Source: Pseudomonadota bacterium
Lineage (GTDB): Bacteria > Pseudomonadota > Gammaproteobacteria > Xanthomonadales > SZUA-38
Direction of reading: 5' to 3'
NCBI GenBank assembly: GCA_039033415.1
Contig: JBCCCR010000026.1
Span: 1 to 64,000, forward strand
DNA: 64,000 nucleotides
In this document: positions 16,079 through 52,766 of the stretch, one piece after another
Layout: each line of letters opens with the position of its first letter
Numbering within the stretch: position 1 is the stretch's first letter
The notes under the pieces: model-generated
What the model saw: the letters and a program-made list of their open reading frames with translations, nothing else
What the model was told of the DNA's origin: nothing
Database searches by the model: none
Program-made: the position numbers and the translations under genes

Positions 16079-16250
16079 GTCTGACCCCGTTTGTTGTTGC
16101 GCCGAAGCTGAAGAACCTGGATTTGAGGCGGCTGCTTCGGCTGCCTTTCCCTGCAAGTGCTTAAGTTTAACCCGCCAACGCACCGGCGCAACGGGACAGA
16201 TGGGCCTGCCGGGGGTAAGCTAGCTTAATGGGGCACGACGAGGTTGAGAG

Positions 16251-25805: not shown

Positions 25806-25837
25806 AAAAAAAACCGGCCCTGGGACGGGGCCGGTTT
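25806..25837 (-). terminator. Rho-independent terminator of the OmpA/DUF928/CHAT operon
   Basis: Read leftward: AAACCGGCCC / GGGCCGGTTT stem (10 bp) with a 7-nt loop, followed by a run of T (A run at 25806-25813 on the plus strand). It lies about 220 nt beyond the OmpA stop. Confidence 0.88.
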
Positions 25838-26058: not shown

Positions 26059-26604
26059 TTAGTTCTGTGGGCCGAGATTGACGATCAGCACAACCCGGTT
26101 TTCGGGGCCGTTGGGATTGTCCGGGTTGAGCAGCGAGCTCTCGCCGCGCGCCACCGTCTCCAGCCGGTTCGCCTCCATCTCGAATAGGTTGATCAGGTAG
26201 TTTCGTACACCGTCCGCTCGCCGCCGCGACAGGTCGAGGTTGTAGTCCTCGTCTCCCAGCGCATCCGTATGGCCTTCCACCCGAAAACGAAATTCGGACA
26301 GTGAGTCGGAGGTGAGGGCAGAACCTAGGCGATTAAGCGTCTGCTGCGCAGATTCTGTCAGCTCGTAGGAGTCGAGCTCGAACCGGATTCGCAGCGGGAT
26401 CGCCCGCAGCTTCATTTCCGGCGCCTCGCCGTCGAGGCTTCGGGTCACCAGTGGGGGTGGCGGCGTCAGCGCGTCGATGATGTCCTGCTCGCTGGCGTTG
26501 TCGGCGTCGAGCTCCATCACCTCATAGTCGGTCTCCTGAGCCAGGCTGCTGCCCGCGAGCAGCGCCCACAGCGCCAGCGTATAAATCCCAGTTTTGATGT
26601 TCAT
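26059..26604 (-). CDS. OmpA-family periplasmic protein
   Basis: 181 residues from ATG at 26604 with AAGGAG 7 nt before it. Signal peptide (MNIKTGIYTLALWALLAGSSLA), a short acidic linker, then the OmpA C-terminal peptidoglycan-binding domain: RIRFELDSYELTESAQQTLNRLG, FRVEGHTDALGDEDYNLDLSRRRADGVRNYLI. No beta-barrel and no lipobox, so it is a soluble periplasmic wall-binding protein. Last gene of the leftward arm of the CHAT/TPS island, 108 nt after the DUF928 gene. Confidence 0.88.
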   Translation of the reverse strand: MNIKTGIYTLALWALLAGSSLAQETDYEVMELDADNASEQDIIDALTPPPPLVTRSLDGEAPEMKLRAIPLRIRFELDSYELTESAQQTLNRLGSALTSDSLSEFRFRVEGHTDALGDEDYNLDLSRRRADGVRNYLINLFEMEANRLETVARGESSLLNPDNPNGPENRVVLIVNLGPQN

Positions 26605-26712
26605 GTGTTTCTCCTTAACTTCCCGCGGCCCTGCTAGCGGCCGCATCCCTGTCTGTTTGTTGCTGTCCTGGCTTTCGTCCTGGCCTGATTGTCATACCGA
26701 TCGATCAGACCG

Positions 26713-27390
26713 CTAGTTGAGCACCTGCTCGAGATCGGCCTGCCGCAGCAGTTCGTCCCGTAGCGCTCGTGCCGCCGCTGAATTCTCAGCCTCCTGCTCA
26801 AGGAGTGCCAGCGCGTCATACCAGACGCCGGCTGCGGCCAATTCTTTTGCTTGGACCAGCGGCCCGCCCGATGGATCCGCCGTCAGCGCCATAGCGTGCT
26901 GGAGCAGCGTGCTGGCAAACACGTCGTTTGACCTGACGTTTTCGTCCGCGACGGCGGCGACGGAAAACTGATAAACCTTACCCAGCTCCAGGCTGACTTT
27001 GTCGGGCAGCTCGAAAGCCTGCATTCCCGCATCCAGCGGTGGGTCGAGACGGACCTCTGCGAGCGCTTCCTCGCCCCCTTCTTCGATCAACACCAGCTCC
27101 ACCGGCACGTTGATGCGGTTGGATGCGTGCCAGTAGATCACCGGCCGCGGGCTGATCGTCGCCGCCAGTCCCGGCGGCGCGATGACGGTCAGCGACAGGT
27201 CGTTTTCGCTGCCCCGGATACTGCCGCCGACGGTTGCAGCAGGTGCATTGGGGTCGGGCGGCTGGTAGCGAATAGTCCCGCCGCCGGAGCCTGCCTGAGC
27301 CCAGGCGGCAAGCGGCAGTGCGGCCAGTACCAGCAGCGCTGGACCCAGCCAGCGACCCGGACGCCGTGAGATTTTCTTTGCCGAGCTCAA
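26713..27390 (-). CDS. DUF928-like secreted protein
   Basis: 225 residues with signal peptide (GPALLVLAALPLAAWA). The sequence GLAATISPRPVIYWHAS, VPVELVLIEEGGEEALAEVRLDPPLDAGMQAFELP and LELGKVYQFSVAAVAD corresponds to the DUF928 family that I know mainly from cyanobacteria next to CHAT, haemagglutinin and ShlB-type genes. The C-terminal ~60 residues (AAAGVWYDALALLEQEAENSAAARALRDELL) are TPR-like. It overlaps the CHAT gene stop by 4 nt. Function unknown; family name given from memory of its pattern. Confidence 0.7.
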   Translation of the reverse strand: MSSAKKISRRPGRWLGPALLVLAALPLAAWAQAGSGGGTIRYQPPDPNAPAATVGGSIRGSENDLSLTVIAPPGLAATISPRPVIYWHASNRINVPVELVLIEEGGEEALAEVRLDPPLDAGMQAFELPDKVSLELGKVYQFSVAAVADENVRSNDVFASTLLQHAMALTADPSGGPLVQAKELAAAGVWYDALALLEQEAENSAAARALRDELLRQADLEQVLN

Positions 27391-29597
27391 AGCCAGTTAC
27401 CAATCAGCAGAAACGGTGCCCAGTAGCCTGGATGCTGATAGCGGCGATCCGCGATCAGGCTGCGCTGCGCTTTGGCGAGCGCCACGGCTTTTGAGCTGTC
27501 GCCCTGTGCCAGCTCGCCGTAAAACTCGGTGATCAGCTCCGAGGTGGCGCGGTCGTTGATGTACCACAGCGTCCCGAGCGCGCTGCGGGCGCCAGCCCGG
27601 ATGGCGATACCCGCGAGGCCGAGGGCCGCGCGGTCGTCACCGGCCGCGGTGCGGCAGGCGGAAAGCGTCAGCAGCTCGACGGGCTCGTCGCTGAAGCGAC
27701 GGAGCTGCATGAAGTCGTCGAGCTGGTCCATATTCAGCTTGTCGTCGTAGGTGAGCAGAAAAGACTGGCTGACGTCCGCCTGGAACTCACCGTGCGACGC
27801 AAAGTGCACGATGTTGTAGGGCCGCTGAGTCATTTCCTGTTCAACGTTGCCGGCGACAAAACTCTGATTCTTCAGCATCGTGACCCGGTCCGGGAACAGC
27901 TCGCCAAGTGACGCCAGCTCGGCCTCAACCGAGGGCAGCGCGGGAAACCCCTGCACCGCGTCGGTCAGCCCGTTCAGCAGAAAGCTGGGCTGCTGCCGGG
28001 CGATGGGCTGCGGATCGGTGAGGCTGAGGCCTGGGGTGGTGGCGATCGCAAACCGCTCGACCAGAAACTGTTTCCCGTCGTGAAAAGCAGCGAGCGGCAC
28101 GTTGCGCAGGCTGCCGTCGGGCACAAACACCAGGGTATCGACCCCAGCATCTTTGAGCAGCGGTTCGGCATCGCGGACAAGCCAGTTGTAAAGGCGCTTG
28201 GCCTGGACGCGGTACTGGTGCGAGCTGCGCCGTTCGAGCGAGCGACGAAACTGCTGCGCCACCCGACCGATCTGGTCGGCGCCGGCGGGCACGGAGTACT
28301 GATGGATCGTACCGCCGATACTCACCAGCATCTCGCTGCGGTCGTTCAGCAGCACCGGGTAAAGGACGGCGGTGCGGCGGTCCAGACTGTCGAGCGCGGT
28401 ATCCGCGATATCGAGGTCGACGACACACTCATCCAGGAAGTAGTCCTGGAGTTCTGCACTCTTGAACGCCTCGATTACCTGCCTTGCACGCCGCCGCAGC
28501 TGCTGCTGACGGTCCGGCGCGGCGCTCGCCGCCTGGGTCAAAAGAATGTCTGCGTGGTCCTGGAACAGCGGGCCGACCCGCTGGCGAAACGGCTCCCGAC
28601 GACCGCGGATGCCGGTCAGCAGGCTGGATCGGACTTCGCTGAGGTCGGTGAGCGCGCGCTCCATGGCGGCCTGGGCGCCCGGCAGATCGCCCGACGCGCG
28701 AAGCGCCCGGCCGCTGAGCCACTGCCAGCGATAGGTGAGGTCGGTGGCGCCAACGCTCTGAGCTTCGAACGTGGCCAGGCGAGCCAGCTCCAACGCTTCC
28801 TGCGCGCGACCCGCCCGCAGATAGAATTCGCCCAGTAAGCCAGCGGCCTGCGAGCTGAGGCGCGGGCTGGACATTTGCCTCGCCAGCTCCAGCGCGCCGG
28901 CGGCCGTGCGCGCACCCAGGTTAAGGTCCCAGTTTTGCAGCTTGAGGGTTTCGTCGGACCGGAGCAGCGTGTCGGCGGCCGCTACCTCCAGACGAGCCCG
29001 CAGCGCCGGGTCGGCGGTCAGCAGCGTCTGTTCCAGTGCTTTTTCCAGCGCGTCGCGCAGGGCCGGACGGTTGAGCTGGGCGAGGGCGTTCTCCGCTTTG
29101 CCCAGCCAGGCGCGGGCCGCGTCGCTGGAGTCATCGACCGCACCGGCGCTGGCCAGCACGTCATCAAAAAACTGCTCAGCTTCATTAAATCGGGCCTGGT
29201 AGGTGGCGAGCCTGCCCAGCGACAGCTGAGCCTGGCGCGCTCTGACGGGGGCGTCCGCGGCCAGCGTCAACGCCTGCTCCAGCTCACTGCGCGCGCTGCT
29301 TAGGTCGCCGAGCATGATGGTGCTTGCGCCTTGACCCAGGAGACAGTCAATTGCGTCCGAGCGCTGCTGCGTCTGGTTGGCCTCATTCACGCACGCCTGG
29401 AACGCGGCCCGTGCTGCCGCAAACTGTCCGTCTTCGAGGAGCCGGTAACCCGCATCGGCCGCCGCCAGACAAATAGAACCCGTCAGCGCGGCGGAAAGCG
29501 CGGTGCCCAGTGCAAAAGCCTTGGCCCAGAGCGTGCCCTGCCTGGTCGTTGGTGTCAGATCATTCAATCGACAGTTTTCCCCGTAAATCCCTCTCAC
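27387..29597 (-). CDS. TPR-CHAT protease-like protein of the TPS island
   Basis: Up to 736 residues from GTG at 29597; a TATGAT abuts this codon, so TTG at 29567 (MNDLTPTTRQ...) may be the true start. Signal segment (FALGTALSAALTGSICLA) then a series of TPR-like helices (AGYRLLEDGQFAAARAAFQACV...) to about 330, then the CHAT domain ~420-736. Catalytic His in IVHFASHGEF (~600) and Cys in LTLSACRTAAGDD (~644) are both present, as are GIAIRAGARSALGTLW and the C-terminal HPGYWAPFLLIGNW typical of CHAT. Probably periplasmic. Divergent from the TpsA gene and first of three leftward genes. Confidence 0.87.
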   Translation of the reverse strand: MRGIYGENCRLNDLTPTTRQGTLWAKAFALGTALSAALTGSICLAAADAGYRLLEDGQFAAARAAFQACVNEANQTQQRSDAIDCLLGQGASTIMLGDLSSARSELEQALTLAADAPVRARQAQLSLGRLATYQARFNEAEQFFDDVLASAGAVDDSSDAARAWLGKAENALAQLNRPALRDALEKALEQTLLTADPALRARLEVAAADTLLRSDETLKLQNWDLNLGARTAAGALELARQMSSPRLSSQAAGLLGEFYLRAGRAQEALELARLATFEAQSVGATDLTYRWQWLSGRALRASGDLPGAQAAMERALTDLSEVRSSLLTGIRGRREPFRQRVGPLFQDHADILLTQAASAAPDRQQQLRRRARQVIEAFKSAELQDYFLDECVVDLDIADTALDSLDRRTAVLYPVLLNDRSEMLVSIGGTIHQYSVPAGADQIGRVAQQFRRSLERRSSHQYRVQAKRLYNWLVRDAEPLLKDAGVDTLVFVPDGSLRNVPLAAFHDGKQFLVERFAIATTPGLSLTDPQPIARQQPSFLLNGLTDAVQGFPALPSVEAELASLGELFPDRVTMLKNQSFVAGNVEQEMTQRPYNIVHFASHGEFQADVSQSFLLTYDDKLNMDQLDDFMQLRRFSDEPVELLTLSACRTAAGDDRAALGLAGIAIRAGARSALGTLWYINDRATSELITEFYGELAQGDSSKAVALAKAQRSLIADRRYQHPGYWAPFLLIGNWL

Positions 29598-29793
29598 ATC
29601 ATACTAGTTCCCGCGGGCCGCCGGGGCCAGATGAATGTGCTAGTCTCAAGCAGGTCGAGGGTTTTTCTTACAACGCGCCGCGATTGTTTCTGCGGGGTGC
29701 GCGGTTCAATCTCGGCGATGCTGTAGGGGTGGGGAAGCGCCGCCGGTCCGCTTAGCGGTTTCGGCTGGCAGTGAACAGGGAAGCGGCAACACG
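29598..29793. promoter_or_regulatory. Divergent promoter region of the CHAT/TPS island
   Basis: 196 bases between the two arms. On the minus strand TATGAT (29598-29603) is a good -10 without an obvious -35. On the plus strand TGCTAGTCT near 29640 could be an extended -10. Several GC-rich inverted stretches near 29610-29630. No operator recognised. Confidence 0.4.
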
Positions 29794-32700
29794 ATGAAAA
29801 AAGCACAGTCTTCTTCGCTTGCTCGGACGCTCGTGTCCGGCATGCGGCACCGCCGGCTCGCGCTAGCGATCATGCTGGCGGCGAGCGCGGGGAGCCAGGC
29901 CCAGGTGGTCTTTGATGGTTCACTCGGCGCCCCGGGCGCCCTGAACGGCCCCGCCTATCTCATCGATCAGGCGCGTGGTCGGCTGGAGGGGGGCAACCTT
30001 TTTCACAGCTTTTCCGATTTCAGCATCAGTACCGGCGAGTCGGCAACGTTCTCCTCGACTTCGATGCTCGACAACATTATCGCTCGGGTGACCGGCGGCG
30101 GCCTGTCGCGCATTGACGGGCAGCTTGGCACGGCCGCACCAGGGCCGGTCAGCCTGTGGCTGATCAACCCGGCTGGGGTGGTTTTTGGCGCCAATGCCTC
30201 GCTGGATGTGCAGGGTTCGCTCTATCTCAGCACCGCGGACTACCTCCGGTTTACCGACGGCACTACCTTTTCCGCCGGGGGAGCCGGAGGGCCGTCGACA
30301 CTTTCCGCCGCGCCTGTCGCCAGCTTTGGCTTCATGGGGGCGCCGGCCGGCATCACCATGAACGAAGCGGTGCTCTCGATTCCGGAAGGCAATACGTTTG
30401 CTCTCGTCGGCGGCGACATTTCGATCAACGACGCGAGGCTCCAGGCGCCCGCCGGGCACGCACAGGTGATCTCGGTAGCCTCCCAGGGTGAGGCGCCGCT
30501 GACGGCCGACGGGATTGACGTCAGCGGGTTTTCAGCGCTCGGGGATATCGACATTTTTCGAAACACCTCACGGCTGCCGGTCACGGGCAATCTGGACGTC
30601 AGCGGTGGCTTGTTCACCGGCACGCAGGCGGGCGATATTACGGTTCGAGGCGGTTCGCTGGACAGCGACAGCGGCTTCTTCAACTCCGTATCGTTCAGCG
30701 ACCAGAACTCGGGTCGCACCGTTATCGAGGTGACCGGTGAAGCTAACCTGACCGGCAACACCCAGGTGCTGTCATCCAGCTTCTTCGGTGCCGGCGACGC
30801 CGGCGATGTAATAATCCGCGCCGGTGAGCTGGTGGTGGTCGACAACGCCAGCATCAGCACCGAGTCGCAGGGCGCCGGCGACGCCGGCGACGTCACGCTG
30901 GTGGCAGACAACATATTTATGGACGAGCGGGGCAAGGTGTTTTCCAACACCTTCGACTCGGGTCGAGGCGGCAACATCACGATGACCGCGACCGGCACTA
31001 TTGTGATGGACGGGCAGTCGTCGGTGCGCTCGGTTGCGCTTGGGTCGGGCAACGCTGGCGACATCGTTGTCGACTCCGCCGAGCTGGTCCTGTTTGACGA
31101 AGGCACCATCGACGCCTCAACGTTCGGCGGCAGTTCGGGCAACGGCGGTTCCATCGACATCAACACCGGCGAGCTGGTGGCCCGCGACTTTGGCGTCCTG
31201 ATTACCACGCAGACGGGCGGCAGCGGCGACGGCGGTTCCATTTCGATCGACGCCGATTCTGTGGTGGTGGACAACCGGGCGGAAATCTCGGCGGAGAGCA
31301 GCTCCACCGGCGATGCCGGTGGCATCCGCATCAACACCGACTCGTTTGTGGCCAGCAACGGGGCGCTGATCAACAGCGCGACCAGCGGCGCTGGGCGCGG
31401 TGGATCCGTGGACATCAACGCTGATGATCTCGCTATCAGCGGGAGCGCTACCGAGATTACCGCAGCCACCGCCGGCGCCGGCCGCGGCGGCAACGTCAGC
31501 ATCAACGCGCGCAATGTCGCGATCAGCGATGGCGCCCGCGTGACCGCCCGTGCGGTGTCGACCGGTAACGGCGGCGATGTGGATATCCGAAGCGACGAGC
31601 AGCTGTCGATCGACGGCGCCACGGTCACCGCGTCAGCCAACGGTTCGCGGGGAGGCGGCGTGGCGCTGGCCGCCGGCCAGTCCATGGCGCTGACCAACGC
31701 CAACGTTACGGCTGCGGTGTCGACTGGGCCGCAGGGCGGGACGGTGACCCTGGCGGCACCGCAGATGCTGGTCGACGGCAGTACCGTCAGCGCGACCACC
31801 GGTGGCAACGGCAGCGGCGGCAATGTTGAAATCAGCGGAGACACGCTGCTGGTGAGCAACGGCTCGGAGGTCACATCACGCAGCAGCGGCAACGGATCAG
31901 CCGGTTCGGTGGCGCTGAGCGGCTCCTCGCAGCTCTCCGTCAGCGACAGCGAAATTGCATCGTCTGCCGTGCGCGGTGACGGCGGGGACGTCAACCTGGC
32001 GGCGGATCGGGTCGACATCAACGGCTCGCTGATCTCGGCCTCGGTGGACGGCGGTGCCGGTGACGGCGGGTCGGTCAGCATTGCCGCGGTGGATGCACTG
32101 AGCATCGCCAACAGCAGCATCACGGCTGCCACCGGCGGCACCGGCGACGCGGGCACCGTAACCATCACGGTCGGCGGTGGCGCCCAGCCCAACGAACGCC
32201 GACTGGAAGGCCAGGACACCGATAGCGGTGGCGACCTGACAATCGATCAATCGCTGATCTCGAGCGTTGCTTCGGGTGACGGTGACGCTGGCGGGGTCAG
32301 CCTGACCGCCGGCAGCATTAGCCTGAGCGGCAGTGAGACTTCAGCGACCGCTGGCGGTTTGGGTGACGCGGGCTCCGTGGTGCTCCGGTCGGATACGAGC
32401 ATTACCTCCGCGGACAGCGCGATCACCACCGAGGCCAATCTCGGCCAGGGTGGGGCGATTGAGCTGACGGCCCCGACCATGATCACGCTCGACGATACGC
32501 TCGTTTCAGCGACGGTGCTGGGCGGCACCGGTGACGGCGGCGACCTGACATTTACCACCGGCAAGCTGAGCGTCATGGGCGGTTCGATCGAGGCAGCCAC
32601 CTTCGGCACGGGCACCGGCGGCGTAATCAGCTTTGACACCGACGATCTGATGCTTATGGAAGGCGCGCGTGTAGACAGCAGCGCCGGCGGCGGGGGGCAG

Positions 32701-35052: not shown

Positions 35053-35061
35053 GACCCGCCG

Positions 35062-41000: not shown

Positions 41001-42441
41001 CTACACCGATTCATCCCCGGTCCTGACCGGCAACGGCTTACAAACGGCGACGCTGGACGTCGCCGATCTGACCTGCGGTACGAACTATGACCTGCACGCC
41101 CGGGCGAGCAACAGCGGCGGCATGGTCGAAAGCGCCTTCGCAAGCTTTGCTACGGCAGCCTGTCCGCAGCCGCCGCCGGTGGTGACCACGCTCGCCGCCC
41201 AGAGCGTCACCGAAACCAGCGCTGACCTGCGGGCGGCTGTCGACCCCAACGGTGCGAGTACGCTGGTGGAATATGTTTTTGCGGCGGTCGGCGAAGCGGA
41301 CGGTCCCTGGCTGACCGCAACCACGATCACCGAGTCGACCACGGTGGTCGCGCCGGTCAGTGGCCTGGACTGTGGCCGAAGCTATCGGTATCGGTTCCGG
41401 GCCAGCAACGCCGGTGGTCAAACCGAAGGGGCTGAGCTCAGTTTTATGACCACCGAGTGTCCCGCTGACTTCCCCGAGACCACCAGCGTTGCGGCAAACG
41501 CGGTGAGTCAGACGTCCGCCACGCTCAACGCAACCGTCAACCCGAACGGGTCCGAGACCCAGGTGAGCTTCGACTTTGGCCGGGGCGGCGTGTTCACCGA
41601 TTCGGCGGCGCTGGACGTGACGCTCGACGGCAGCGACACCCAGCCGGTGAGCGTGGTGCTGACAGGCCTGGTCTGTAACAGCGAGTACCAGTTCCGGGTC
41701 CAGGCAACCAACGCGGCGGGTACCGCCTTCGGTGCGGCGCTGACGTTCACGACCAACCCCTGTGATCGGATCCTCCTGGTGGACGACGACGACAACGTGC
41801 CCGACGTGTTGCCCACCTACAGCGGCGCGCTCGACACGTTGGGTTTTGCTTTCGACGTGTGGAACACCAACGGGGCGGACGCGGAGCCCGGCCAGGCTGA
41901 GCTGGAGAGCTATTCCACCGTCATCTGGTTTACCGGCAATAACGCCGAAGTTGGCACCGGCCCTTCTTCCACCAGTGAGGAGGCGCTGGGAGCGTACCTG
42001 AACGGCGGTGGATGCCTGGCGGTCTCGGCTCAAGATTATTTCACTGTGCGCGCTAACGGCAGCGTTCCGACTCCGCTGATGGCCGACTACCTGGGCGTCA
42101 GCGGCGGCACCAGCGACGCGGGGCCCGCTGAGGTGGCCGGCGTCTCTGTTGAGTTTGCAGGACTGCCAGCGAGCGGTAGCTACGTGCTGGACTACGCGAG
42201 TGCTGCTCTGCAGGACAGGGCTGACGAGCTGGCCGAAGACAGCACCGCCGCAGCGTCTTTCAGCGGTGAGGGCCGGACGGCAGGTCTACAAAAACTGACT
42301 CCGGTTTACCGAACGCTCTACCTGGGTTTCCCGCTGGCCGCGGTTCCGGGTGCCACCGAGCAGGCCGCCGTACTCAGCGCTATGCTGGACTTTTGTCGCG
42401 GGGCCGATCAGATTTATGCCGATGGGTTTGAAGATGAATAG
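35062..42441 (+). CDS. Giant secreted protein: NHL propeller, tandem C13 peptidase domains, FN3-like repeats
   Basis: 2459 residues from GTG at 35062; ATG at 35089 is also possible. Signal peptide to ~41. Then an Ig/cadherin-like domain (SAFADPDGDVLNFQANGLP ~275-345), an NHL-type propeller ~350-910 (repeated VYVADANRVQVFD, MYIADAGNFRVQKFS, LYITDRANNNVQVLD), a C13 legumain-like domain ~915-1155 with His in YLADHGSED (~1006) and Cys in IYEACRAGSF (~1048), an Ig-like domain, a second C13-like domain ~1268-1500 lacking both residues, a prepeptidase-like region, a carboxypeptidase-regulatory-like domain ~1755-1830, four FN3-like repeats ~1838-2233 each with a Cys pair, and a glutamine-amidotransferase-like domain (ILLVDDDDNVPDVLPTY). 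Ends IYADGFEDE. Lies 9 nt after tpsA; cell-surface or secreted protease role inferred. Confidence 0.82.
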   Translation: MHRGDSAGLMPRAGSWPGRATLARLLATGALALLSATGAAAQTLNLIDRTSACLSSPLLGLSHNADPPGTAFVVQSADGFRVPDGPAWRLDQLRVRGSFNGSELSPEGVDVRVYQNSETQNAPDAQVCSFNVALSQLGPQASSGNFEINLPQEPASACELPAGRYWLSVVFNGSIGGNPSQGRYWYWDQSTDASMVSWRMRASADLDGTGISCPDWLPRDQCSSVTQENSLCFGLSGNTNVTLRDSLADQFTSAGTSFLMDVGSAFADPDGDVLNFQANGLPDSLALDPVSGRISGTLQQTDIPGSPYTVDVSVTDQDGETALDTFSLVVADNEVSEFRFRRLWPVLQQPWYFGSGAPDVAFAGEALFVANADFSRIQRFTQLGLLISNLFIEGPGGAGTVGKPRVIAASRKAVYTVGDLDPQIHMLDPEGRLIRKFGASELGGQVPQFLAVTERGCRRLGGCVFVGLPDRVLKFSEQGQFLTSFGACSSAPCGGGTVQTLGGLGASEDGFVYLADAAEDQLIVLRAQPGDAISTPPTLLTEVGSSGTDPGQFQQPSDLTLDRQGRVYVADANRVQVFDELGAVLDEYQANDPARTIRRLEFGPGNLGFASNDLAQVVRFRRVGDVEAGASTLNLSTPYSSADDAPGFFRQPVDLAAGPNSNMYIADAGNFRVQKFSPQGDLQNGFGSEGTGPGEFSRMIALDAGTAFGQFRVSVLDDTGTEYRIQRFENQLNFVDQITLPSGADYVDMVIGSGGNAFLVTEQGSALKVAPDGTVLAGWQSEGSGGEFRQVAIAPNGLIYFTVQSPSQDGFEIFDRFGNFVAFLPAAFNAPASLTIATDGKIVLGEIPDVAPDVPRIKIFRQDGVLLQSVGEYGYFPGSFAAPSGLDFAPNGLLYITDRANNNVQVLDPVPPSQVTKVIVVAGGGPYVGNNLWETTQALTNSAYLALAYQGLSGDEIMYLSSNQNEDLDGNGVSDVDAPATPGALNNAITGWGADADQLVVYLADHGSEDVFRLNPRNTLSASQLASALDTVQAGPDGVSQAVVIYEACRAGSFVDDLANSSVNRIVLASTGEAQSAKFVSDGILSFSNQFWTQIFSGSDLADAYSTASQVMTASFTDQQPEADADGDGSSNEPIEDLAALAGVFVGAGTDFDPGSPIITSVTAPQTLASGNTAQISAFGVSDADGVSRVYAEIIPPDFEDVDIDQPVREFPGFELQPDSRGSVDYTLIYDEFSIEGVYVINVYAQDRFGNVSSPSTTTVTVGNPELRKALLIVGGETTDPRWSAYSANGSFAFTALSAQGYSDLGLETVRYLSNGGGEGVDGAAGSANVADGFAWAGTQAQDVVVYLVGGVRSGALRLASGDRLTVSELADYLDNLEAAISGRLVVLYDGNRSGAFLPRLASASDDRRLLITSAAASQDASFLLDGTLSFSQFFWNRVLNGDSVLEAFEAARDAISFSAGGQTPQLDDNSNGEGNDAEDGLLASAYSIGTGILQDANGPTVGETGPDVVLSGGVTTADITVNDVLSTGSVDQVFGVVTTPPPQQLTDSFAFAPTNVDADGNGEYTGTYGGFGPLPGGGFAAGDYSISVYARDARGNVSFQENLRVEQTAGPDGYEPDATRAAASVIFVDDLDAQPHTFHVDSDADVMSFTAVNSPAGPGNPAQTYQIEVSEIDDFSGAAFNLRIELFGPTTPLGTPLATTSGGLSGSLSLTWPPANAAYDEGEGEYFVRVSALSSTQRGKYEVRVFRPDVLLTGLVRGSVVDAQTGLPVVGALISTGGTVAAASNPLGEFQLVENPGSYDLTVIPPAGYDGLVEAAVPVVESLTTWRLLQLDPSGVAPTVFTGTADNIGQTSVTLDGQVSPNGETTSVLFSVQPAAGGIVQPGDLAAAAPLSDVTAQVSGLTCETGYQFRVSATNASGTSDGNLVAFTTADCVTPPTVGTPQAQSITDSSATLTVQVDPMGSDTTTAFRWRPVGGVFNVYTDSSPVLTGNGLQTATLDVADLTCGTNYDLHARASNSGGMVESAFASFATAACPQPPPVVTTLAAQSVTETSADLRAAVDPNGASTLVEYVFAAVGEADGPWLTATTITESTTVVAPVSGLDCGRSYRYRFRASNAGGQTEGAELSFMTTECPADFPETTSVAANAVSQTSATLNATVNPNGSETQVSFDFGRGGVFTDSAALDVTLDGSDTQPVSVVLTGLVCNSEYQFRVQATNAAGTAFGAALTFTTNPCDRILLVDDDDNVPDVLPTYSGALDTLGFAFDVWNTNGADAEPGQAELESYSTVIWFTGNNAEVGTGPSSTSEEALGAYLNGGGCLAVSAQDYFTVRANGSVPTPLMADYLGVSGGTSDAGPAEVAGVSVEFAGLPASGSYVLDYASAALQDRADELAEDSTAAASFSGEGRTAGLQKLTPVYRTLYLGFPLAAVPGATEQAAVLSAMLDFCRGADQIYADGFEDE

Positions 42442-44161
42442 CTTGCGCCTGAAAGGTCTACTGCTCCTGGCGGTGGTGCTCTGCGGGAGCGCCGGCGCGG
42501 CGACGCGACACGCGCTGCTCATCGGCGTCGGCAGCTACGATGACCCGGTGTCGGCGCTGCTGGCGCCGCGGTTTGACGTAACGGCCGTCGAAAATACCCT
42601 GCTGGAAAAGTGGGCCTTTGAGCCCACCAACGTGACCCGCCTGCTCGACGGTGACGCGACCCGCGAGGGGATCCTGCGCGCCCTGCGCAATCTTCAGCTC
42701 ACCACCGAACCCGGCGACTTTGTGTTTGTGTACTACGCGGGCCACGGCACCAGCGCGCTGGACTTAAGCGTCGCCGCGGCGCTGCCCCATACCTCGGGCG
42801 CGCTGATCCCCGCCGATTTCAATCGGCACGGCACGCCGGAGGAGATCGCCGAATCGCTGATCATCGGGCGGCGCGATATTCGCCCGATCTTGGCGCAGCT
42901 CGATGCCGCGGGCCGCGAAGTCTTTTTTGTGGTGGACGCCTGCTATTCTGGCAACACGGTCCGTGGCGCCGGCCAGGAGCACACCGGGCGTCCGCCCCTG
43001 CCGGTGCGCGCCGCCGACATTCTGCCGCCGGATGTGCAGGCCACGCCCGCGCCGCCCAGCGAAGAGGCATACCCTTACTCGCAGGTGTTCTATCTTTCGG
43101 CCGCCGGTGAACACGAGCCCGCCGGCGAGATCACCGACAAGCTGCTGCGCTGGTATCCCACCTTCGACGGGCAGCCTCATGGGGCGTTTACTGACGCTCT
43201 GCTGCGCGCCATGCAGGGCCTCACCCCCGGCACGGATGCGAACGGTGACGGCCGCGTGTCTTACCTTGAGCTGTATGAATCCGTGCGCGGCTTTATGGAA
43301 AAACGTGGCTATCCGCAGAGCCCGCAGTTTTTGCCGACGATCGATGAGGCGCAGGTGGACCCCAGCACCGCCATCATTTTTGACCTGCCCGGCGAGCCCC
43401 AGTTTGTGCAGCCCGCACCCGAACCGGATCAGCCGCTGCGGCTCAAATGGATCAACCCCAGTGAAGCGGATCGCCGTCTCGTCAAGAGTCTGAGCGGTCT
43501 GGAGATCACCGACGGTGATGCCGATCTCATTTTGCTGCGTGAGTCCGACCGTAGCGTCCTGCTCAACGCGTCGGGTGATCTCATTTCTGAGGTGTTTGAC
43601 CCGGCCAGCGCTGACCCGTGGCACCGGATTCGCGGGGAGCTGTTCGTGCGCGGCTTGGCCTCACGGGGAGTAGCCAAAGGGGCGAATCAGAACCTGGTGC
43701 TGCAGTACACAGATCCCGCGATGGGGGTGACCGCCGTACGCGGCGACGACCTGGGTTTTGTCATGCGCCCGTCGCTGCCGCTTCATTTGCTGGTGTTCGA
43801 CCTGGAGTCAAACGGCGGCATCAGCCTGCTGTATCCCATCAACAGACAGGAGAAGGCGCGGCAGCCGGCCGGGCGCCTGACCAAGATCGAAGATATAGTA
43901 GTAGTACCACCGTTTGGCATGGACAAGATTGTGGCGGTGGGGTTAGGGCGCCCGCTGGAGGCGGCGGGGCAAGCTTCAACCGAAGGTCTTGGGTCGTTTC
44001 TCGGCCAGACGCTGGATCCCGGCAGCGATGCGCTCGCCCGGTTTCAGCAGCTCCTGGCCGGCCGCGACGACCTGAGGGCCGTCGCGCAACTGTCGCTGAT
44101 CACCACCGACAGCGTGAACCGGGCGGCCCGCGGCGGAGCCGACAGGGGGGATAAGGAATGA
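42434..44161 (+). CDS. Caspase-family (C14) protein with EF-hand-like loop
   Basis: 575 residues from ATG at 42434, overlapping the previous stop by 8 nt. Signal peptide (LKGLLLLAVVLCGSAGAA). Caspase-like p20 region: RHALLIGVGSYDD, His in VYYAGHGTSA (~104), Cys in VDACYSGNTVR (~170). At ~267 a canonical 12-residue calcium loop, DANGDGRVSYLE. The C-terminal ~230 residues (RLKWINPSEADRRLVKSL..., HLLVFDLESNGGISLLYPI) look like the DUF4384-type domain often following bacterial caspases. Clan CD peptidases cleave after basic or acidic residues; the substrate is unknown, but the signal peptide and neighbours place it in the envelope. Confidence 0.9.
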   Translation: MNSLRLKGLLLLAVVLCGSAGAATRHALLIGVGSYDDPVSALLAPRFDVTAVENTLLEKWAFEPTNVTRLLDGDATREGILRALRNLQLTTEPGDFVFVYYAGHGTSALDLSVAAALPHTSGALIPADFNRHGTPEEIAESLIIGRRDIRPILAQLDAAGREVFFVVDACYSGNTVRGAGQEHTGRPPLPVRAADILPPDVQATPAPPSEEAYPYSQVFYLSAAGEHEPAGEITDKLLRWYPTFDGQPHGAFTDALLRAMQGLTPGTDANGDGRVSYLELYESVRGFMEKRGYPQSPQFLPTIDEAQVDPSTAIIFDLPGEPQFVQPAPEPDQPLRLKWINPSEADRRLVKSLSGLEITDGDADLILLRESDRSVLLNASGDLISEVFDPASADPWHRIRGELFVRGLASRGVAKGANQNLVLQYTDPAMGVTAVRGDDLGFVMRPSLPLHLLVFDLESNGGISLLYPINRQEKARQPAGRLTKIEDIVVVPPFGMDKIVAVGLGRPLEAAGQASTEGLGSFLGQTLDPGSDALARFQQLLAGRDDLRAVAQLSLITTDSVNRAARGGADRGDKE

Positions 44162-45873
44162 AACAGACAACAATCGGTCGTTGGGTTTTGCTGGCAGCGC
44201 TGCCGGGGCTGTTGCTGCCGCTGCCCTCAGCGCTCGCCCAAAGTGACGACGTGGAGCGCGGCCTTCAGCGTCGTCCCGGGCTGGAGAACGAGCGCCCCGA
44301 GCTGCCGGAATTCGACGAGCGCGAGGACGTGCCGCTGGATCTGCCGGCAATCGAATCGCTGGCGATCCCCAAAGACACGCTCTCGGGCGCCCCGCTGGTT
44401 TATCTCCAGAAGGTGCAGCTCACGGACGCCACGGAGTTGACCGCCACCGACGTGGGCGAGGTGAGCGCCGCCTACCTGGACCGAAACGTCAGCGCCGAGG
44501 AGCTGCAGCAGCTGAGGGCGGAGCTGACTCAGCTCTATGTCGACCGGGGCTACATCACGTCCGGCGTGCTGCTGCCCGATCAGCGGATCAGTGACGGCAC
44601 GGTCCGCTATCAGGCGGTTGAGGGTCGGCTCGAGGCGCTGGAGGTCTCCACCAGCGGACGACTCCGCCCCTCTTACGTGGAGTCACGGCTTCAGGGTGGG
44701 GGCGACGAGCCGTTGAACGTGGTGGATCTGCGTGAGCAGCTCCGCATCCTGCACGCTGATCCGTTGATCGAACGGGTCGATAGCCGGCTGCTGCCGACGC
44801 AGCAGCGGGGTTCAGCCAGGCTGGTGGTCGACGTCGAGGAGGCCCGCCCGTACAGCCTGTTTTTGACGGCCCACAACAATCGGGCCCCGAGCGTCGGCAG
44901 CGAATGGGTGGAGCTCGGTTTTGTCCATCGCAACCTGCTCGGTTTTGGCGATCGCGCAGAGCTGCGGTACGGGACCGGTGACGGCCTGGATGACTACCAG
45001 CTGGGCTACGCGGTGCCGGTCACCCGAAGCGGGATCACGGTGGGCGTCAGCTACGCGCAGAGCGACGCACAAATTGTCGAAGAACCGTTCAGCCGCATCG
45101 ATATCCGCAGCGACAGCGAGGAGTGGGCCCTGGACGTGGTTGTCCCCTGGAAACGCTTCGGTGCCCGTCGTTTGACCTTTATCGCCGGTGTAGATCATCG
45201 GGAAAGCAATACAAGCCTGCTGGGCATTCCGTTTTCCTTTTCTCCGGGCGTGAACAACGGTCGGGCTGAGGTTACCGCCGCGCGGCTGACCGCGGACTGG
45301 ACCGACCGACGCGCCAACCAGGTTTTTGCGCTGCGGGGACGAATTAGCGTAGGGCTCGATGCCCTCGACTCGACGATCAACGACGGCAATCTGCCCGACA
45401 GCGAGTTTGTGACCTTCCTCGGTCAGGCCCAGTGGTCACGCCGTTTCGGTGAAAACGACAACCAGCTGATTTTGCGCGGCGATTTGCAGAAAACCTTCGA
45501 CGGCCTGCTGCCGCTGGAGAAGCTGTCGATCGGCGGGCGTACGAGCGTGCGCGGCTATCGTCAGAATCTGATGGTGCGCGACAACGGCTGGGTTGCCTCA
45601 GCGGAGTTTCGCATGCCGGCGTTCCGTGACAGCAACGGCCGCAGCAAATTCCAGTGGTCGGTCTTTGCTGACATCGGGCGCGGGTGGAACGAGGATTTCG
45701 ATACGCCGGAGCCTAAGTCGATCGCCAGCGTCGGGGCCGGATTCTTGTGGGATCCACTGCCCGGCCTGCACACCGAGCTCTACCTCGCCCACGGCTTTGA
45801 AGACATCGAGTTCAGCGACAGCGATCCGCAGGACGACGGGATCCACCTCCTGGTTCGTTACGACATCTTCTAA
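44158..45873 (+). CDS. TpsB outer-membrane transporter (ShlB/FhaC family)
   Basis: 571 residues; exports TpsA exoproteins across the outer membrane. Signal peptide (LLAALPGLLLPLPSALA), two POTRA-type domains at about 75-225 (VYLQKVQLTDATELTATDV..., YVDRGYITSGVLLPDQRISDGTVRYQAVEGRLEAL; RLRPSYVESRLQ...), then the 16-strand barrel with RRLTFIAGVDHR and the conserved L6 motif SVRGYR at ~463. Ends LLVRYDIF, a typical terminal aromatic strand. ATGA overlap with the caspase gene. Cognate substrate is presumably the TpsA encoded two genes upstream; the 9-kb separation is unusual. Confidence 0.92.
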   Translation: MKQTTIGRWVLLAALPGLLLPLPSALAQSDDVERGLQRRPGLENERPELPEFDEREDVPLDLPAIESLAIPKDTLSGAPLVYLQKVQLTDATELTATDVGEVSAAYLDRNVSAEELQQLRAELTQLYVDRGYITSGVLLPDQRISDGTVRYQAVEGRLEALEVSTSGRLRPSYVESRLQGGGDEPLNVVDLREQLRILHADPLIERVDSRLLPTQQRGSARLVVDVEEARPYSLFLTAHNNRAPSVGSEWVELGFVHRNLLGFGDRAELRYGTGDGLDDYQLGYAVPVTRSGITVGVSYAQSDAQIVEEPFSRIDIRSDSEEWALDVVVPWKRFGARRLTFIAGVDHRESNTSLLGIPFSFSPGVNNGRAEVTAARLTADWTDRRANQVFALRGRISVGLDALDSTINDGNLPDSEFVTFLGQAQWSRRFGENDNQLILRGDLQKTFDGLLPLEKLSIGGRTSVRGYRQNLMVRDNGWVASAEFRMPAFRDSNGRSKFQWSVFADIGRGWNEDFDTPEPKSIASVGAGFLWDPLPGLHTELYLAHGFEDIEFSDSDPQDDGIHLLVRYDIF

Positions 45874-47684
45874 TGAGCTGGCTTGGGCGCAGCCTGCTGG
45901 TGCTGGCCGTCAGCGCGTTTGGGGCGCTGGTGTCGGTGACCCCCTTTGTGAAGCGCCTCGAGCTTCAGGTTTTTGATATCCAGCAGCGATTCGTGCGCCA
46001 GTACGTGCCGCAGCCTGGCGCCAGCCCCGAGGTGGCGCTGATCGGCATTGACGAGGGCACGGTACAGGCCATCGACGCCCCCATGGCCCTCTGGCACCAG
46101 CAGCTGGCGCAGGTCATTACCGCCATGGCGTCGGCCAAGGCCGCGGTCCTGGGCTTTGACCTTGTCCTGCCGGAACGCAGTTTTGACGAGTTTCTTGGCC
46201 GGGCCAACGATCAGCCGCTGATGCAGGCCATCCTCGGCGCCCGCCGCGCCGGCGTGCCGGTGGTGTTTGGCCGAACGCTGAGCGCCAGCGGCCGGCTATA
46301 TGACGTCCTGCCGAAATTTAAGGCGGTTCTGGGCAAAGACGGTTTCGGCATGGTACTGCAGGTGCAGGAGATGGACGCGGTGGTGCGGCGCTACTACGAC
46401 GACCGCTACGAAGATGCGCTTGAGCTGCGCACGCTCGTCGGGCAGATGGCCCGCCAGACCGACGTCACGGTGCGCAACGGCTGGATCGACTACGCGGTCG
46501 GCGACCCGATCGGCTACGTCCCGATGTCTCAGGTGATCCAGTGGCAGGCAGCGGGAGACGTCGACGCTCTGCAACAGGCGTTTGAAGGCAAAGCGGTGTT
46601 TGTCGGCGGCGTCCTGCCGTTTGAAGATCGCCACACCCAGCCACTGGTCCTGGCGGACTGGGAAGCCAACCGTTACGCCCCCGGTGTGCTCATCCACATG
46701 CAGGCCTACCGGTCGCTGGCAAGCGACCGGATTCTCAGCGGGGTGGGCGGTGTTTGGTACGCCAGTTCGCTTCTCGTGATGGCCCTGCTGGTGCTGCTAC
46801 GCGACCGGCCGCTGACGGCGCTGATTGTGCTCGGGGTTGCCGTGCTTGCGGCGGCGGCGGGGTCGACGGTTGCCTATCTGGAGGGCTGGCGCCTTAGCGC
46901 GGTGCCGATGGTGGTCACCGCTCTTGCAGCCTGGCTGGCAGGGGCGGTCCGAGACGCCTGGTCAAACCTGCGGGACAAGCAGCGGATGCGTTCGGCGTTC
47001 GGTGGTTACGTCAGTCCACAGATTCTGAATGAAATCCTGGAGGGCAACCTGTCGCCGGAGTTAGGCGGCGAGAGCCGGGAAATTTGCCTGTTATTCTGCG
47101 ATTTGATTGGCTTTACGACCCTCAGCGAAACCAATGACGCGGAATATGTTCTAACCCTGTTGAATCGGTACTTTGATCGCGTTACACCCGCCATTCACAC
47201 CTTTGATGGTACGCTCGATAAGTACATGGGAGATGGGATCATGGCGTTCTTCGGCGCGCCAAAACCCCACAAAAACGCGGCCCAGGCGGGCTTCGATGCG
47301 GCGCGGATGATGCTGAACGAGCTGGACAAGTTCAACGTCGAGCTCGCCGCAGAGGGGATTCCGCCGATCCAGGCCGGAATCGGGCTGGGTCTGGGAAAGG
47401 CGATTGTCGGCCACGTCGGCGCCCAGTCTCGCTTCGAATATTCGGCGATCGGCGACGCGGTGAACGTGTCGGCGCGTATCGAGGGCCTGACGCGGCACCT
47501 GAACTGCCGCATTGCGCTGAGCGAGAACGTCGCCAATCAGCTAAGGGTCGAGGACCAGCAGGAGCTGGAGCCTTTCGGGCCACAGCAGATCAAAGGCCAC
47601 TCGGCGATCAAGGTTTTCGGCTGGGGAGAGCTCCGGCCAGGGAAGGAGGCAGCTGAGGCTGTCAGGAGCGAGGTAGCATCATGA
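45873..47684 (+). CDS. CHASE2-domain adenylate cyclase
   Basis: 603 residues. One N-terminal membrane helix, a CHASE2 extracytoplasmic sensor ~30-285 (LIGIDEGTVQAIDAPMALWHQQLAQVI, VLGFDLVLPERSFDEFL), three membrane helices ~290-365, a short linker (RSAFGGYVSPQILNEIL), and a class III cyclase domain ~400-590. Metal-binding Asp residues in LFCDLIGFT (~410) and YMGDGIMAFFG (~453); the Lys of LDKYMGDG and Asp of AIGDAVNVSARIEG are the pair that selects ATP. So an active adenylate cyclase is predicted. Start overlaps the TpsB stop by one base. Provides signalling output of the island. Confidence 0.92.
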   Translation: MSWLGRSLLVLAVSAFGALVSVTPFVKRLELQVFDIQQRFVRQYVPQPGASPEVALIGIDEGTVQAIDAPMALWHQQLAQVITAMASAKAAVLGFDLVLPERSFDEFLGRANDQPLMQAILGARRAGVPVVFGRTLSASGRLYDVLPKFKAVLGKDGFGMVLQVQEMDAVVRRYYDDRYEDALELRTLVGQMARQTDVTVRNGWIDYAVGDPIGYVPMSQVIQWQAAGDVDALQQAFEGKAVFVGGVLPFEDRHTQPLVLADWEANRYAPGVLIHMQAYRSLASDRILSGVGGVWYASSLLVMALLVLLRDRPLTALIVLGVAVLAAAAGSTVAYLEGWRLSAVPMVVTALAAWLAGAVRDAWSNLRDKQRMRSAFGGYVSPQILNEILEGNLSPELGGESREICLLFCDLIGFTTLSETNDAEYVLTLLNRYFDRVTPAIHTFDGTLDKYMGDGIMAFFGAPKPHKNAAQAGFDAARMMLNELDKFNVELAAEGIPPIQAGIGLGLGKAIVGHVGAQSRFEYSAIGDAVNVSARIEGLTRHLNCRIALSENVANQLRVEDQQELEPFGPQQIKGHSAIKVFGWGELRPGKEAAEAVRSEVAS

Positions 47685-48508
47685 AGAAGATGTTTGCAGG
47701 GATGATTTTGTGGGGCGTGGCGCTGACGGTATCGGCGGATCCGGTGGCCATTGTCACCGATGCGCTCGGTGACCACAGCCTCAACGGCGAAGCGCTGGAG
47801 ATCCTGTCTGAGGTCAGCACCGGTGATCAGATCATGGTTGCCGACGCCGGCAGCATCAGTCTCGTTTACTACCAGGATGGCGCGGAGTTCGTGTACATGG
47901 GCCCGGCAGCCTTTGAGGTTGGGGAGAACGCACCCAAAACACTCTCCGGCAACGATCCCAGCAATGGGTCAGCCGTGCCGGAGGGTGAAGGCTCGATCTC
48001 AACCGTGGGTCTGGCTCAGGCCGCCATGGTGATGCGTGCCGGCGGGTCTGAAAAACGCCTGGATCAGGTGTTTCCCGTCGACACCGTGCTGCTCGGCAGC
48101 CCGGACACGTTTCGTTGGCGCGAACTCGCTGAAGGGGTGGGGTACACCTTTGAGCTGACCGACGGTGAGGGGCGCAGCCTGCTTGAGACCACGGTCACGG
48201 GCAACGAGCTTAAGGTGCCGAGCCACATTACGCTCGCCGCGGGGGATTACTATTCCTGGTCGCTCGAAAGCCGCCTGCCCGATGGCAAAAAGTTCTCCAG
48301 CTACGCGGGCTTCAGCATCGCTGACGATGCGCTGATCAGCCGGGTAGAGAGCTTCAGGCCCGCCGACGAGGCCAACGTCTCCCGGATTATCGTGTTTGCG
48401 CTGTGGCTGGAGCAGAACGAGCTCGTGGAAGAGGCGAGACGCTACTGGCAGATGGCCAGCCGCCAGCGGCCCGAAGACCTCGCTCTGCGCCAGCGCGCCG
48501 GTGGCTGA
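47681..48508 (+). CDS. FecR-like periplasmic protein
   Basis: 275 residues with signal peptide (MKKMFAGMILWGVALTVSA). The FecR-type core is visible as VAIVTDALGDHSLNGEALEILSEVSTGDQIMVADAGSISLVYYQDGAEFVYMGPAAFEVG (~20-80). A later beta-rich segment (FELTDGEGRSLLETTVTG...) and a C-terminal TPR-like helix pair (ALWLEQNELVEEARRYWQMASRQRP) follow. ATGA overlap with the cyclase. No membrane helix, so it is not a classical anti-sigma FecR; probably a periplasmic binding component. Last gene of the rightward arm. Confidence 0.78.
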   Translation: MKKMFAGMILWGVALTVSADPVAIVTDALGDHSLNGEALEILSEVSTGDQIMVADAGSISLVYYQDGAEFVYMGPAAFEVGENAPKTLSGNDPSNGSAVPEGEGSISTVGLAQAAMVMRAGGSEKRLDQVFPVDTVLLGSPDTFRWRELAEGVGYTFELTDGEGRSLLETTVTGNELKVPSHITLAAGDYYSWSLESRLPDGKKFSSYAGFSIADDALISRVESFRPADEANVSRIIVFALWLEQNELVEEARRYWQMASRQRPEDLALRQRAGG

Positions 48509-48553: not shown

Positions 48554-48587
48554 AAAACGCCGGTTGGGGTAGCCCAACCGGCGTTTT
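48554..48587. terminator. Bidirectional rho-independent terminator
   Basis: A 15-bp perfect stem, AAAACGCCGGTTGGG with CCCAACCGGCGTTTT, and GTAG loop. A run precedes and T run follows, so it can end both the FecR transcript and the small leftward gene at 48618. Confidence 0.92.
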
Positions 48588-50367: not shown

Positions 50368-50419
50368 TCGTTTTTTTTTGGCTTGCGTCGCCGGTCGCGG
50401 CGGGAGGTCTCGCTGGCGT

Positions 50420-52737: not shown

Positions 52738-52766
52738 GGCCTTCTGGCGACAGGCTCAAACGCCGC

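Follow-up and report, generated by a model that had tools for sequence, protein, structure and literature searches.

Several described systems resemble parts of the locus reported here. The exoproteins HMW1 and HxuA of Haemophilus have a two-cysteine C-terminal anchor (PMC5422565). In Pseudomonas the adhesins CdrA and LapA are held by a periplasmic anchor, CdrA being a two-partner secretion (TPS) exoprotein whose C-terminus forms a cysteine hook, and the protease LapG cuts the CdrA tail near its C-terminus under cyclic-nucleotide control (PMC5422565, PMC11898600). Bordetella FhaB is processed by the periplasmic proteases DegP and CtpA (PMC8263021). In S. meliloti the outer-membrane barrel NsrA acts upstream of the CHASE2 cyclases CyaD1, CyaD2 and CyaK (PMC13001267), and the BiofilmReg operon of Burkholderia pairs a FecR-domain protein with a CHASE2 kinase and is linked to biofilms (PMC5192318); TPS, CHAT and DUF928 do not figure in the passages on these two pathways.

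The locus was found in a stretch of 64,000 nucleotides (the window) from an uncultured Lysobacterales bacterium. The first-pass annotation had read nine genes in two divergent arms, and all nine open reading frames were recovered, together with the following features:

25811-25837, minus strand: terminator-like hairpin with a 10-bp stem, downstream of the left arm
26059-26646, minus strand: OmpA-domain gene, left arm
26713-27390, minus strand: DUF928 gene, left arm
27387-29597, minus strand: TPR-CHAT gene, left arm
29598-29793, no strand: divergent intergenic region of 196 bp, separating the two arms
29794-35052, plus strand: TpsA gene, right arm
34882-35037, plus strand: putative C-terminal two-cysteine hook of TpsA, Cys1697 and Cys1748, motif C-x(n)-SRF...P..P
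35062-42441, plus strand: giant C13 gene, NHL-C13-C13-fn3, right arm
42434 (likely start) to 44161 (stop), plus strand: caspase C14 gene, right arm
44158-45873, plus strand: TpsB gene, right arm
45873-47684, plus strand: CHASE2-cyclase gene, right arm
47681-48508, plus strand: FecR-like gene, right arm
48554-48587, plus strand: terminator-like hairpin with a 15-bp stem, closing the right arm

The rightward junctions from the C13 gene on had been said to overlap by 1-8 nt, and the measured overlaps agree with this (C13/C14 8 nt, C14/TpsB 4 nt, TpsB/CHASE2 1 nt, CHASE2/FecR 4 nt). In the left arm CHAT and DUF928 overlap by 4 nt; gaps of 9 nt and 66 nt separate TpsA from C13 and OmpA from DUF928. 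The OmpA-domain gene probably starts at an internal ATG (MNIKTG...). A sigma-70 promoter scan gave no match in the divergent region, and CRP-type sites are absent from that region and not enriched in the window. The GC content of the island is about 64-66% against about 62% in its flanks, so a recent import is not indicated. The TPS domain, the CHASE2 domain and DUF928 occur exactly once each in the genome of 6.4 Mb, all within this one 22-kb stretch, and the gene order is kept in a second genus of the same family (58-65% identity), so the clustering is more than chance.

With CHAT as the anchor, 84,980 species genomes yielded 188 relatives, and 21 loci were full, having 7 kb or more of flank on either side of CHAT. 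In these 21 loci TpsA accompanies CHAT in 16, TpsB in 15, DUF928 in 14 and a CHASE2-cyclase in 11, and within 10 kb of CHAT the cyclase is missing from 10 and TpsA from five. The CHAT loci come from Proteobacteria, Nitrospirota, Desulfobacterota and others, and a DUF928-anchored search returned the same gene set in Gammaproteobacteria. TPS and CHASE2 genes were paired within 10 kb in 10 genomes, where about 2 were expected. The core consists of TPR-CHAT, DUF928, TpsA, TpsB and the CHASE2-adenylate cyclase, and we are highly confident that it is a real functional module. The first-pass annotation had taken the cyclase for an addition; its presence in 11/21 full loci across phyla instead makes this CHASE2 class III cyclase a core component. 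The likeness to cyanobacterial neighbourhoods that had been noticed is borne out by plasmids of Pseudanabaena and Planktothrix, where CHAT, TpsA, ShlB, DUF928 and CHASE2, the same five families as here, lie together in stretches without annotated C13 or C14 giants. Gene order and orientation differ widely between loci. Most or all of the core is carried by the harmless, cultured Azospirillum rugosum, Nitrospira moscoviensis and Pseudanabaena. In the literature open without subscription we found no description of the module, and no text joining a CHAT domain with CHASE2, two-partner secretion or filamentous hemagglutinin. Other recurring neighbours of CHAT, in the Nitrospirota cases scanned, were generic kinases, PAS proteins, TonB receptors and ABC binding proteins.

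TpsA is a TPS exoprotein (Pfam PF05860, 3e-35; NCBIfam TIGR01901, 9e-17) that makes a long, repetitive, beta-rich fibre, and TpsB is an outer-membrane transporter with POTRA domain and ShlB/FhaC barrel (PF03865, ShlB, 8.3e-29; PF08479, POTRA_2, 1e-17), whose solved relatives are CdiB and FhaC. An exported exoprotein with an N-terminal TPS domain is thus encoded together with a linked transporter, as in two-partner secretion (type Vb). Exactly two cysteines lie within the last 140 residues in 45 of the 48 system TpsAs, two cyanobacterial ones included, and among full-length TpsAs without a neighbouring CHAT only 5/29 have two tail cysteines with one of them at most 20 residues from the end, all counts being from sequences that are not phylogenetically independent. 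The rest of the protein is nearly free of cysteine, and alignment of the tails shows the conserved motif given above. Judged by its sequence, the tail resembles the hook that HMW1, HxuA and CdrA keep in the periplasm, and HxuA is also the closest in sequence to the TPS domain among solved structures. Neither HMW1 nor HxuA is known to be linked to a protease or cyclase of the module's families.

TPR-CHAT (PF12770, 4.2e-56 in a Pfam search) has its dyad at His602 (27792-27794) and Cys648 (27654-27656), invariant in 87/87 aligned CHAT relatives, while the conservation of DYFxDxC among these relatives was partly imposed by the scan used to collect them. The structure model (pLDDT 84.7) has its best match among solved structures in Csx29 (8eey_B, E=4.5e-16, TM about 0.5), a partner-controlled protease to which the fold is closest. 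Csx29, of the type III-E CRISPR complex Craspase, shares the full-length TPR-CHAT fold and the His/Cys dyad, but identity is 12-14%, the CHAT here has a predicted export signal and envelope-protein partners, and no Cas7-11/gRAMP or CRISPR effector was found among the neighbours in the window and the related loci mapped. Signal-like N-termini were seen in 67/79 CHAT and 46/49 DUF928 proteins against 90/243 (37%) in the background, by a crude rule that served as comparison only. The export signal ascribed to CHAT earlier is clear in the orthologues, which lie above the simple threshold, and less so in the window protein, which falls slightly under it. We take the protein to be a predicted exported one, presumably located in the periplasm, where the TpsA tail or a hook-bound partner would be its putative substrate.

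DUF928 (PF06051, 5.7e-17) is likewise predicted to be exported. Its AlphaFold model (pLDDT 91.8) combines an Ig/FN3-like sandwich with TPR-like helices, and a fold search of the PDB gave no match at E<=1e-3; weaker matches were to generic Ig/FN3 and carbohydrate-binding sandwiches only. In the literature open without subscription the only mention of DUF928 was in an unrelated WD40 paper. The OmpA-domain protein (PF00691, 8.3e-21) is exported and of the peptidoglycan-binding type, and its gene adjoins DUF928 also in genomes G297 and G276. It is not limited to this lineage, since an OmpA-like protein also stands beside the system in some Nitrospirota (loci L108, L123 and L133). No Pfam or NCBIfam model matched the FecR-like protein, taken to be periplasmic, but it recurs as a partner of CHASE2: L127 and L132 have a homologue adjoining a CHASE2 cyclase, and L095 has one near CHAT. 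An HMM built from the window protein was too narrow for classical FecR proteins, and Pfam was substituted. The C-terminal part of the FecR-like protein resembles DUF928 (hhalign E=1.3e-6, prob 90).

The CHASE2-cyclase (PF05226, CHASE2, 5.6e-22; PF00211, class III cyclase, 4.1e-18) consists of a periplasmic CHASE2 domain, membrane helices and a cytoplasmic cyclase. The residues D, K, D, D, N and R, with the metal-binding Asp pair and the Lys/Asp purine pair, are present, the canonical set of a class III adenylate cyclase. CHASE2 cyclases together with an outer-membrane barrel recall S. meliloti (PMC13001267), and the BiofilmReg operon (PMC5192318) differs in that the output there is a histidine kinase and the FecR partner here is without a Pfam FecR match. 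The CHASE2 proteins of the cyanobacterial neighbourhoods carry a histidine kinase or AAA domain where the locus here has a cyclase, and in one Nostoc locus the CHASE2 protein carries its own CHAT domain. Apparent CHAT-CHASE2 fusions in L071 and L086 were overlapping spurious frames, the genes there being separate, so the Nostoc protein is the only fusion counted. Loci with CHASE2-cyclase, FecR and TpsAB but without CHAT exist, and CHASE2 is therefore not dependent on CHAT everywhere.

Our preferred explanation, to which we give a probability of about 0.42, is that CHAT gates the retention of a hooked TPS fibre and that CHASE2 and the FecR-like protein turn its state into cAMP. TpsB would export TpsA, and the two-cysteine tail, which bears most of this proposal, would form a disulfide hook that stays periplasmic against TpsB, because of which the fibre would be kept on the surface. 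The exported TPR-CHAT, helped by DUF928 as an Ig-like/TPR-like adaptor and the OmpA-like protein as a wall anchor, would act on the tail or on a hook-bound partner, and the fibre would be kept or released. In the periplasm the CHASE2-cyclase and the FecR-like protein would sense the state of hook, TpsB and protease, with cAMP as the output; that the fibre is let go, and which way the signal runs, we infer from the parts. The conserved core, the two-cysteine tails, the invariant dyad and the absence of LapG from the genomes searched speak for this explanation; against it speak the loci that lack the cyclase or TpsA, the CHAT-less loci with CHASE2-cyclase and TpsAB, the tail cysteines of some TpsAs away from CHAT and the divergent region without a CRP-type site. 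The protease-controlled TpsA with cAMP output that the first-pass annotation had put forward is plausible.

Such a system would work like LapG-CdrA without being a member of it. The LapG family (C93, PF06035) had no match in the genome studied and seven other system genomes, while a control search found the family in Caulobacter. The protease here is a TPR-CHAT enzyme of clan CD and not C93, the membrane protein encoded with it is a CHASE2 adenylate cyclase and not a c-di-GMP receptor, and DUF928, OmpA-like and FecR-like partners are present, with signalling that is likely outside-in. FhaB, whose C-terminal part is cut in the periplasm in a regulated way (PMC8263021), is similar to our model, but FhaB relies on general periplasmic proteases (DegP/CtpA/SphB1) and a prodomain, in place of locus-encoded clan CD proteases and a short cysteine tail.

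The stronger claim, that a periplasmic caspase-fold protease cuts the hooked TPS tail and a CHASE2 cyclase reads the event, in a widespread undescribed system that is a caspase-type counterpart of Lap control with cAMP, extending over Proteobacteria, Nitrospirota and Desulfobacterota and, where the CHASE2 outputs are exchanged, to cyanobacteria, we regard as doubtful. If true, it would be a second, independent answer to the LapG-LapD problem of when an adhesin is let go. Environmental bacteria are rich in CHAT proteases, DUF928 and CHASE2 sensors, and beyond CRISPR-linked TPR-CHAT and a few CHASE2 cyclases we know of hardly any targets for them. A module that recurs with a TPS fibre sets DUF928 in a context, and points to a possible substrate for the exported TPR-CHAT and to what may stimulate CHASE2 cyclases.

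CHAT and caspase domains are frequent effectors of conflict systems. It is conceivable, though rather unlikely, that TpsA and TpsB are an antenna, where a ligand or contact alters the hook or TpsB and switches on CHASE2 with FecR, and that CHAT is a signal-activated effector which cleaves periplasmic or envelope proteins in a conflict or stress response, and not TpsA. The CHASE2 and FecR proteins that accompany TPS without CHAT, the varying CHASE2 outputs with a fused CHAT among them, and the likeness of CHAT to the partner-activated Csx29 all speak for this, as do the role of these domains elsewhere (PMC10907252) and the protein signal that reaches the S. meliloti CHASE2 cyclases via an outer-membrane barrel (PMC13001267). 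Yet CHAT appears to be exported, its partners are more often TpsA (16/21) and DUF928 (14/21) than the cyclase (11/21), and no toxin/immunity pattern was seen. Unlikely, too, is a periplasmic quality-control or maturation station of CHAT, DUF928 and the OmpA-like protein for very long TPS fibres, which would remove stalled or misfolded TpsA as DegP and CtpA do for FhaB (PMC8263021), with CHASE2 reporting secretion stress; the TPR-rich CHAT and the Ig-like DUF928 do, in their models, resemble protein-binding adaptors, but clan CD proteases usually cut specific sequences, which makes dedicated ones an odd choice for quality control, and the conservation of the hook motif points to a specific target.

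That TPS, CHAT and CHASE2 are merely co-located surface genes without mutual action is very improbable: order and orientation vary, single parts are absent from many loci and the C13 family is mostly found apart, but the same five families recur across several phyla, with translational overlaps, a CHAT-CHASE2 fusion and the single-copy TPS, CHASE2 and DUF928 in one 22-kb stretch. Delivery of a CDI-like or polymorphic toxin to other bacteria, with the clan CD proteases as releasing peptidases, can practically be dismissed. Polymorphic toxin systems often include TpsA secretion domains and caspase-like peptidases (PMC3482391), but TpsA here ends in a conserved two-cysteine tail and not a variable toxin domain, matches no toxin family in Pfam or NCBIfam, and is directly followed by the C13 gene and not by an immunity-like one.

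The giant C13 protein and the caspase C14 are additions of the host's bacterial family and not part of the core, and homologues of either were found in 0/21 fully flanked CHAT loci. Of the single nine-gene machine proposed earlier the core genes do belong together, while these two do not share their distribution; the giant C13 had rightly been called an addition, but its tie to the machine is contradicted by homologues that occur mostly apart, the C13 protein being one of about nine paralogues, mostly elsewhere in the genome, of which at least eight are close and solitary. The caspase (PF00656, 1.2e-15) is exported, and a search of six genomes found its orthologues in the syntenic loci of G297 (93%) and G276 (58%) and nowhere else. 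The giant protein, predicted to be secreted, has NHL, two C13-like and fn3 domains and ends in ...IYADGFEDE. Both would probably serve in additional processing steps, either at the outer membrane or beyond it. All four clan CD domains claimed for the island are present, but not all with a dyad: His1006/Cys1049 of the first C13 domain is intact and kept across all aligned homologues, whereas the second lacks both residues (Gly1351, Asn1392) and is degenerate in all of them. This dead domain and the two-cysteine TpsA tail are additions to the first reading.

All nine open reading frames that the first-pass annotation had placed at 26059-48508 are present as described, coordinates and overlaps included, and the gene families were verified by Pfam. 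The left arm (minus strand) carries the OmpA-domain, DUF928 and TPR-CHAT genes, and the right arm (plus strand) TpsA, the giant C13, the caspase C14, TpsB, the CHASE2-cyclase and the FecR-like gene.

C13/C14 junction, plus strand: overlap of 8 nt
C14/TpsB junction, plus strand: overlap of 4 nt
TpsB/CHASE2 junction, plus strand: overlap of 1 nt
CHASE2/FecR junction, plus strand: overlap of 4 nt
CHAT/DUF928 junction, minus strand: overlap of 4 nt
Remaining within-arm junctions: gaps of 9 and 66 nt
Between the divergent arms: spacer of 196 bp
48554-48587: hairpin with a 15-bp stem, 3' of the FecR-like gene
25811-25837: hairpin with a 10-bp stem, beyond the OmpA gene

A hairpin closes each arm, so that both have a plausible end, and the GC content of the island (about 64-66%) is near that of its flanks. 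The genome has one TPS domain, one CHASE2 domain and one DUF928, all within the island. Elsewhere in the window there are a second, distinct CHAT-domain protein of 921 aa (3765-6530) and a kinase-FGE-sulfatase fusion (12851-16183).

Close homologues of the CHAT protein were found in just two further genomes of the order sample, both Lysobacterales MAGs of the same family: G297, from the same genus (CHAT 92% identical), and G276, from a different one (65%). The full gene set and its order are kept in both, and G276 has in addition, between TpsA and C13, a 432-aa CARDB/carboxypeptidase-regulatory-like protein and a second giant C13. Past the FecR-like gene (49159-53498) follow an EAL response regulator, a hybrid histidine kinase, a GTPase-like gene and an OmpR-type regulator, a set that is found next to the island in each of the family's three genomes; a link to c-di-GMP is possible.

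The core of CHAT, DUF928, TpsA, TpsB and CHASE2 is found well beyond this family. DUF928 is present in 10 of 274 gammaproteobacterial genomes, surrounded mostly by the same partners (CHAT, CHASE2-cyclase, TpsA and TpsB), and all six CHASE2 proteins tested from such neighbourhoods have a class III cyclase domain. When 84,980 species genomes were scanned with the CHAT alignment, 188 relatives came up, of which 80 were kept; they span Gamma-, Beta- and Alphaproteobacteria, Nitrospirota and Desulfobacterota, with single records from Verrucomicrobiota, Planctomycetota and Acidobacteriota, and come mostly from MAGs, the cultured exceptions being Azospirillum rugosum and Nitrospira moscoviensis. Where CHAT is flanked by 7 kb or more on either side (21 loci), TpsA occurs in 16, TpsB in 15, DUF928 in 14, the CHASE2-cyclase in 11 and a FecR-like protein in one, while the profiles used found homologues of the window's C13, C14 and OmpA in none. 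The giant C13 and the adenylate cyclase had both been taken for additions to a cyanobacterial type of neighbourhood, which holds for C13 and not for the cyclase. In Thiotrichaceae and Desulfonema (L074, L095) several such CHAT proteins stand side by side with no TPS nearby.

The likeness to the cyanobacterial CHAT-haemagglutinin-ShlB-DUF928 neighbourhoods is borne out by two of the six plasmid CHAT loci inspected, in Pseudanabaena and Planktothrix, where all five families occur together. A Nostoc plasmid has CHAT-DUF928-CHASE2, an Acaryochloris plasmid CHAT-DUF928, and the remaining two are no clear cases. The cyanobacterial CHASE2 proteins (L168, L171, L172) bear a histidine kinase, an AAA-like or their own CHAT domain: the sensor is retained and the output swapped.

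TPS and CHASE2 also appear to belong together outside the CHAT loci. Among 71 gammaproteobacterial genomes having both, at least 10 have them within 10 kb, as against about 2 expected from the counts and genome sizes. Five paired genomes among the matches listed have no CHAT; taken alone these are a weak excess (p about 0.05), and three of them (L191, L195, L211) share one architecture, in which the CHASE2-cyclase is accompanied by TpsA, TpsB and a FecR protein recognised by Pfam, with neither CHAT nor DUF928. In the other two (L214, L215) the cyclase adjoins TPS, again without CHAT or DUF928. These loci form a second neighbourhood type, in other Gammaproteobacteria.

The TpsA proteins of the CHAT loci share a peculiar tail. 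In 45 of the 48, the final 140 residues contain exactly two cysteines; the last cysteine is at most 20 residues from the end in 40, and the fibre outside the tail is almost devoid of cysteine (0.07% vs 1.4% of residues). The first lies within a conserved stretch, roughly LP...L...C...SSF...GRGGLP..P, which is also present in both cyanobacterial TpsAs. Of 40 control TPS loci chosen irrespective of neighbours, one has a CHAT of this type and its TpsA bears the tail. A pair of tail cysteines, one of them close to the C-terminus, is present in five of the 29 full-length TpsAs that lack a CHAT. The tail is thus typical of the system and not exclusive to it. In HMW1 and HxuA a comparable C-terminus remains periplasmic and disulfide-locked (PMC5422565), and among solved structures the window's TPS domain comes closest, by a weak match, to the HxuA type.

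All 87 CHAT sequences compared have the same dyad, and the structure model (pLDDT 84.7) matches Csx29 of Craspase along its length (E 4.5e-16, 14% identity), a TPR-CHAT protease under the control of its binding partner (PMC9729208). A crude rule assigns a signal-like N-terminus to 67 of the 79 CHATs and to 46 of the 49 DUF928 proteins, close to the 37 of 42 that it gives for TpsB as positive control, as against 90 of 243 background ORFs. DUF928 is confidently modelled as a sandwich of the Ig/FN3 type plus TPR-like helices. In its C-terminal part, the FecR-like protein (47681-48508) resembles DUF928 (26713-27390; hhalign E 1.3e-6, probability 90), and the two look related.

We think that TpsA would be displayed by TpsB and held by its two-cysteine tail as an anchor reachable from the periplasm; CHAT, with its DUF928 and OmpA-like partners, would gate this anchor, and CHASE2 with the FecR-like protein would report its state. 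Here we infer the identity of the CHAT substrate and the inward direction of signalling. In one rival reading the locus is a sensor-effector system whose CHAT has another target; in a second it is a secretion quality-control station. The components are already known, and the logic of a gated TpsA anchor resembles LapG-CdrA, where LapG cuts the C-terminus of CdrA and releases the adhesin under c-di-GMP control (PMC5422565, PMC11898600). However, the defining protease LapG was not found in the eight system genomes tested, by a search whose control recovers Caulobacter LapG, and we therefore do not count the module as a member of that system. Our literature search found no publication uniting these families.

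In the window's cyclase, the residues for metal and purine binding are canonical. The genome encodes many cNMP-binding proteins, so cAMP is readable, and further class III cyclases, so that of the island need not be the sole source. A protein sensed via the outer-membrane barrel NsrA of Sinorhizobium makes CHASE2 cyclases raise cAMP (PMC13001267), and a FecR-domain protein and a CHASE2 kinase form a biofilm-linked operon in Burkholderia (PMC5192318).

As for the added peptidases, C14 orthologues are confined to the syntenic loci in the six genomes searched. The C13 family is larger, with at least nine related catalytic domains in this genome, eight of them outside the island in secreted NHL-C13-pseudoC13 proteins of about 1300 aa that are solitary in their neighbourhoods (L160-L167, on contigs C1, C2, C3, C15, C17, C29, C30 and C35). 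In all aligned homologues the first domain has the His/Cys pair and the second is without it, so that the loss must be old and not peculiar to this locus. Most of the solitary paralogues have a GFE-like C-terminus, which looks like a lineage-specific sorting or processing tag. Such tails are found on many secreted proteins of the genome, and the giant C13 itself ends in IYADGFEDE (42400-42441).
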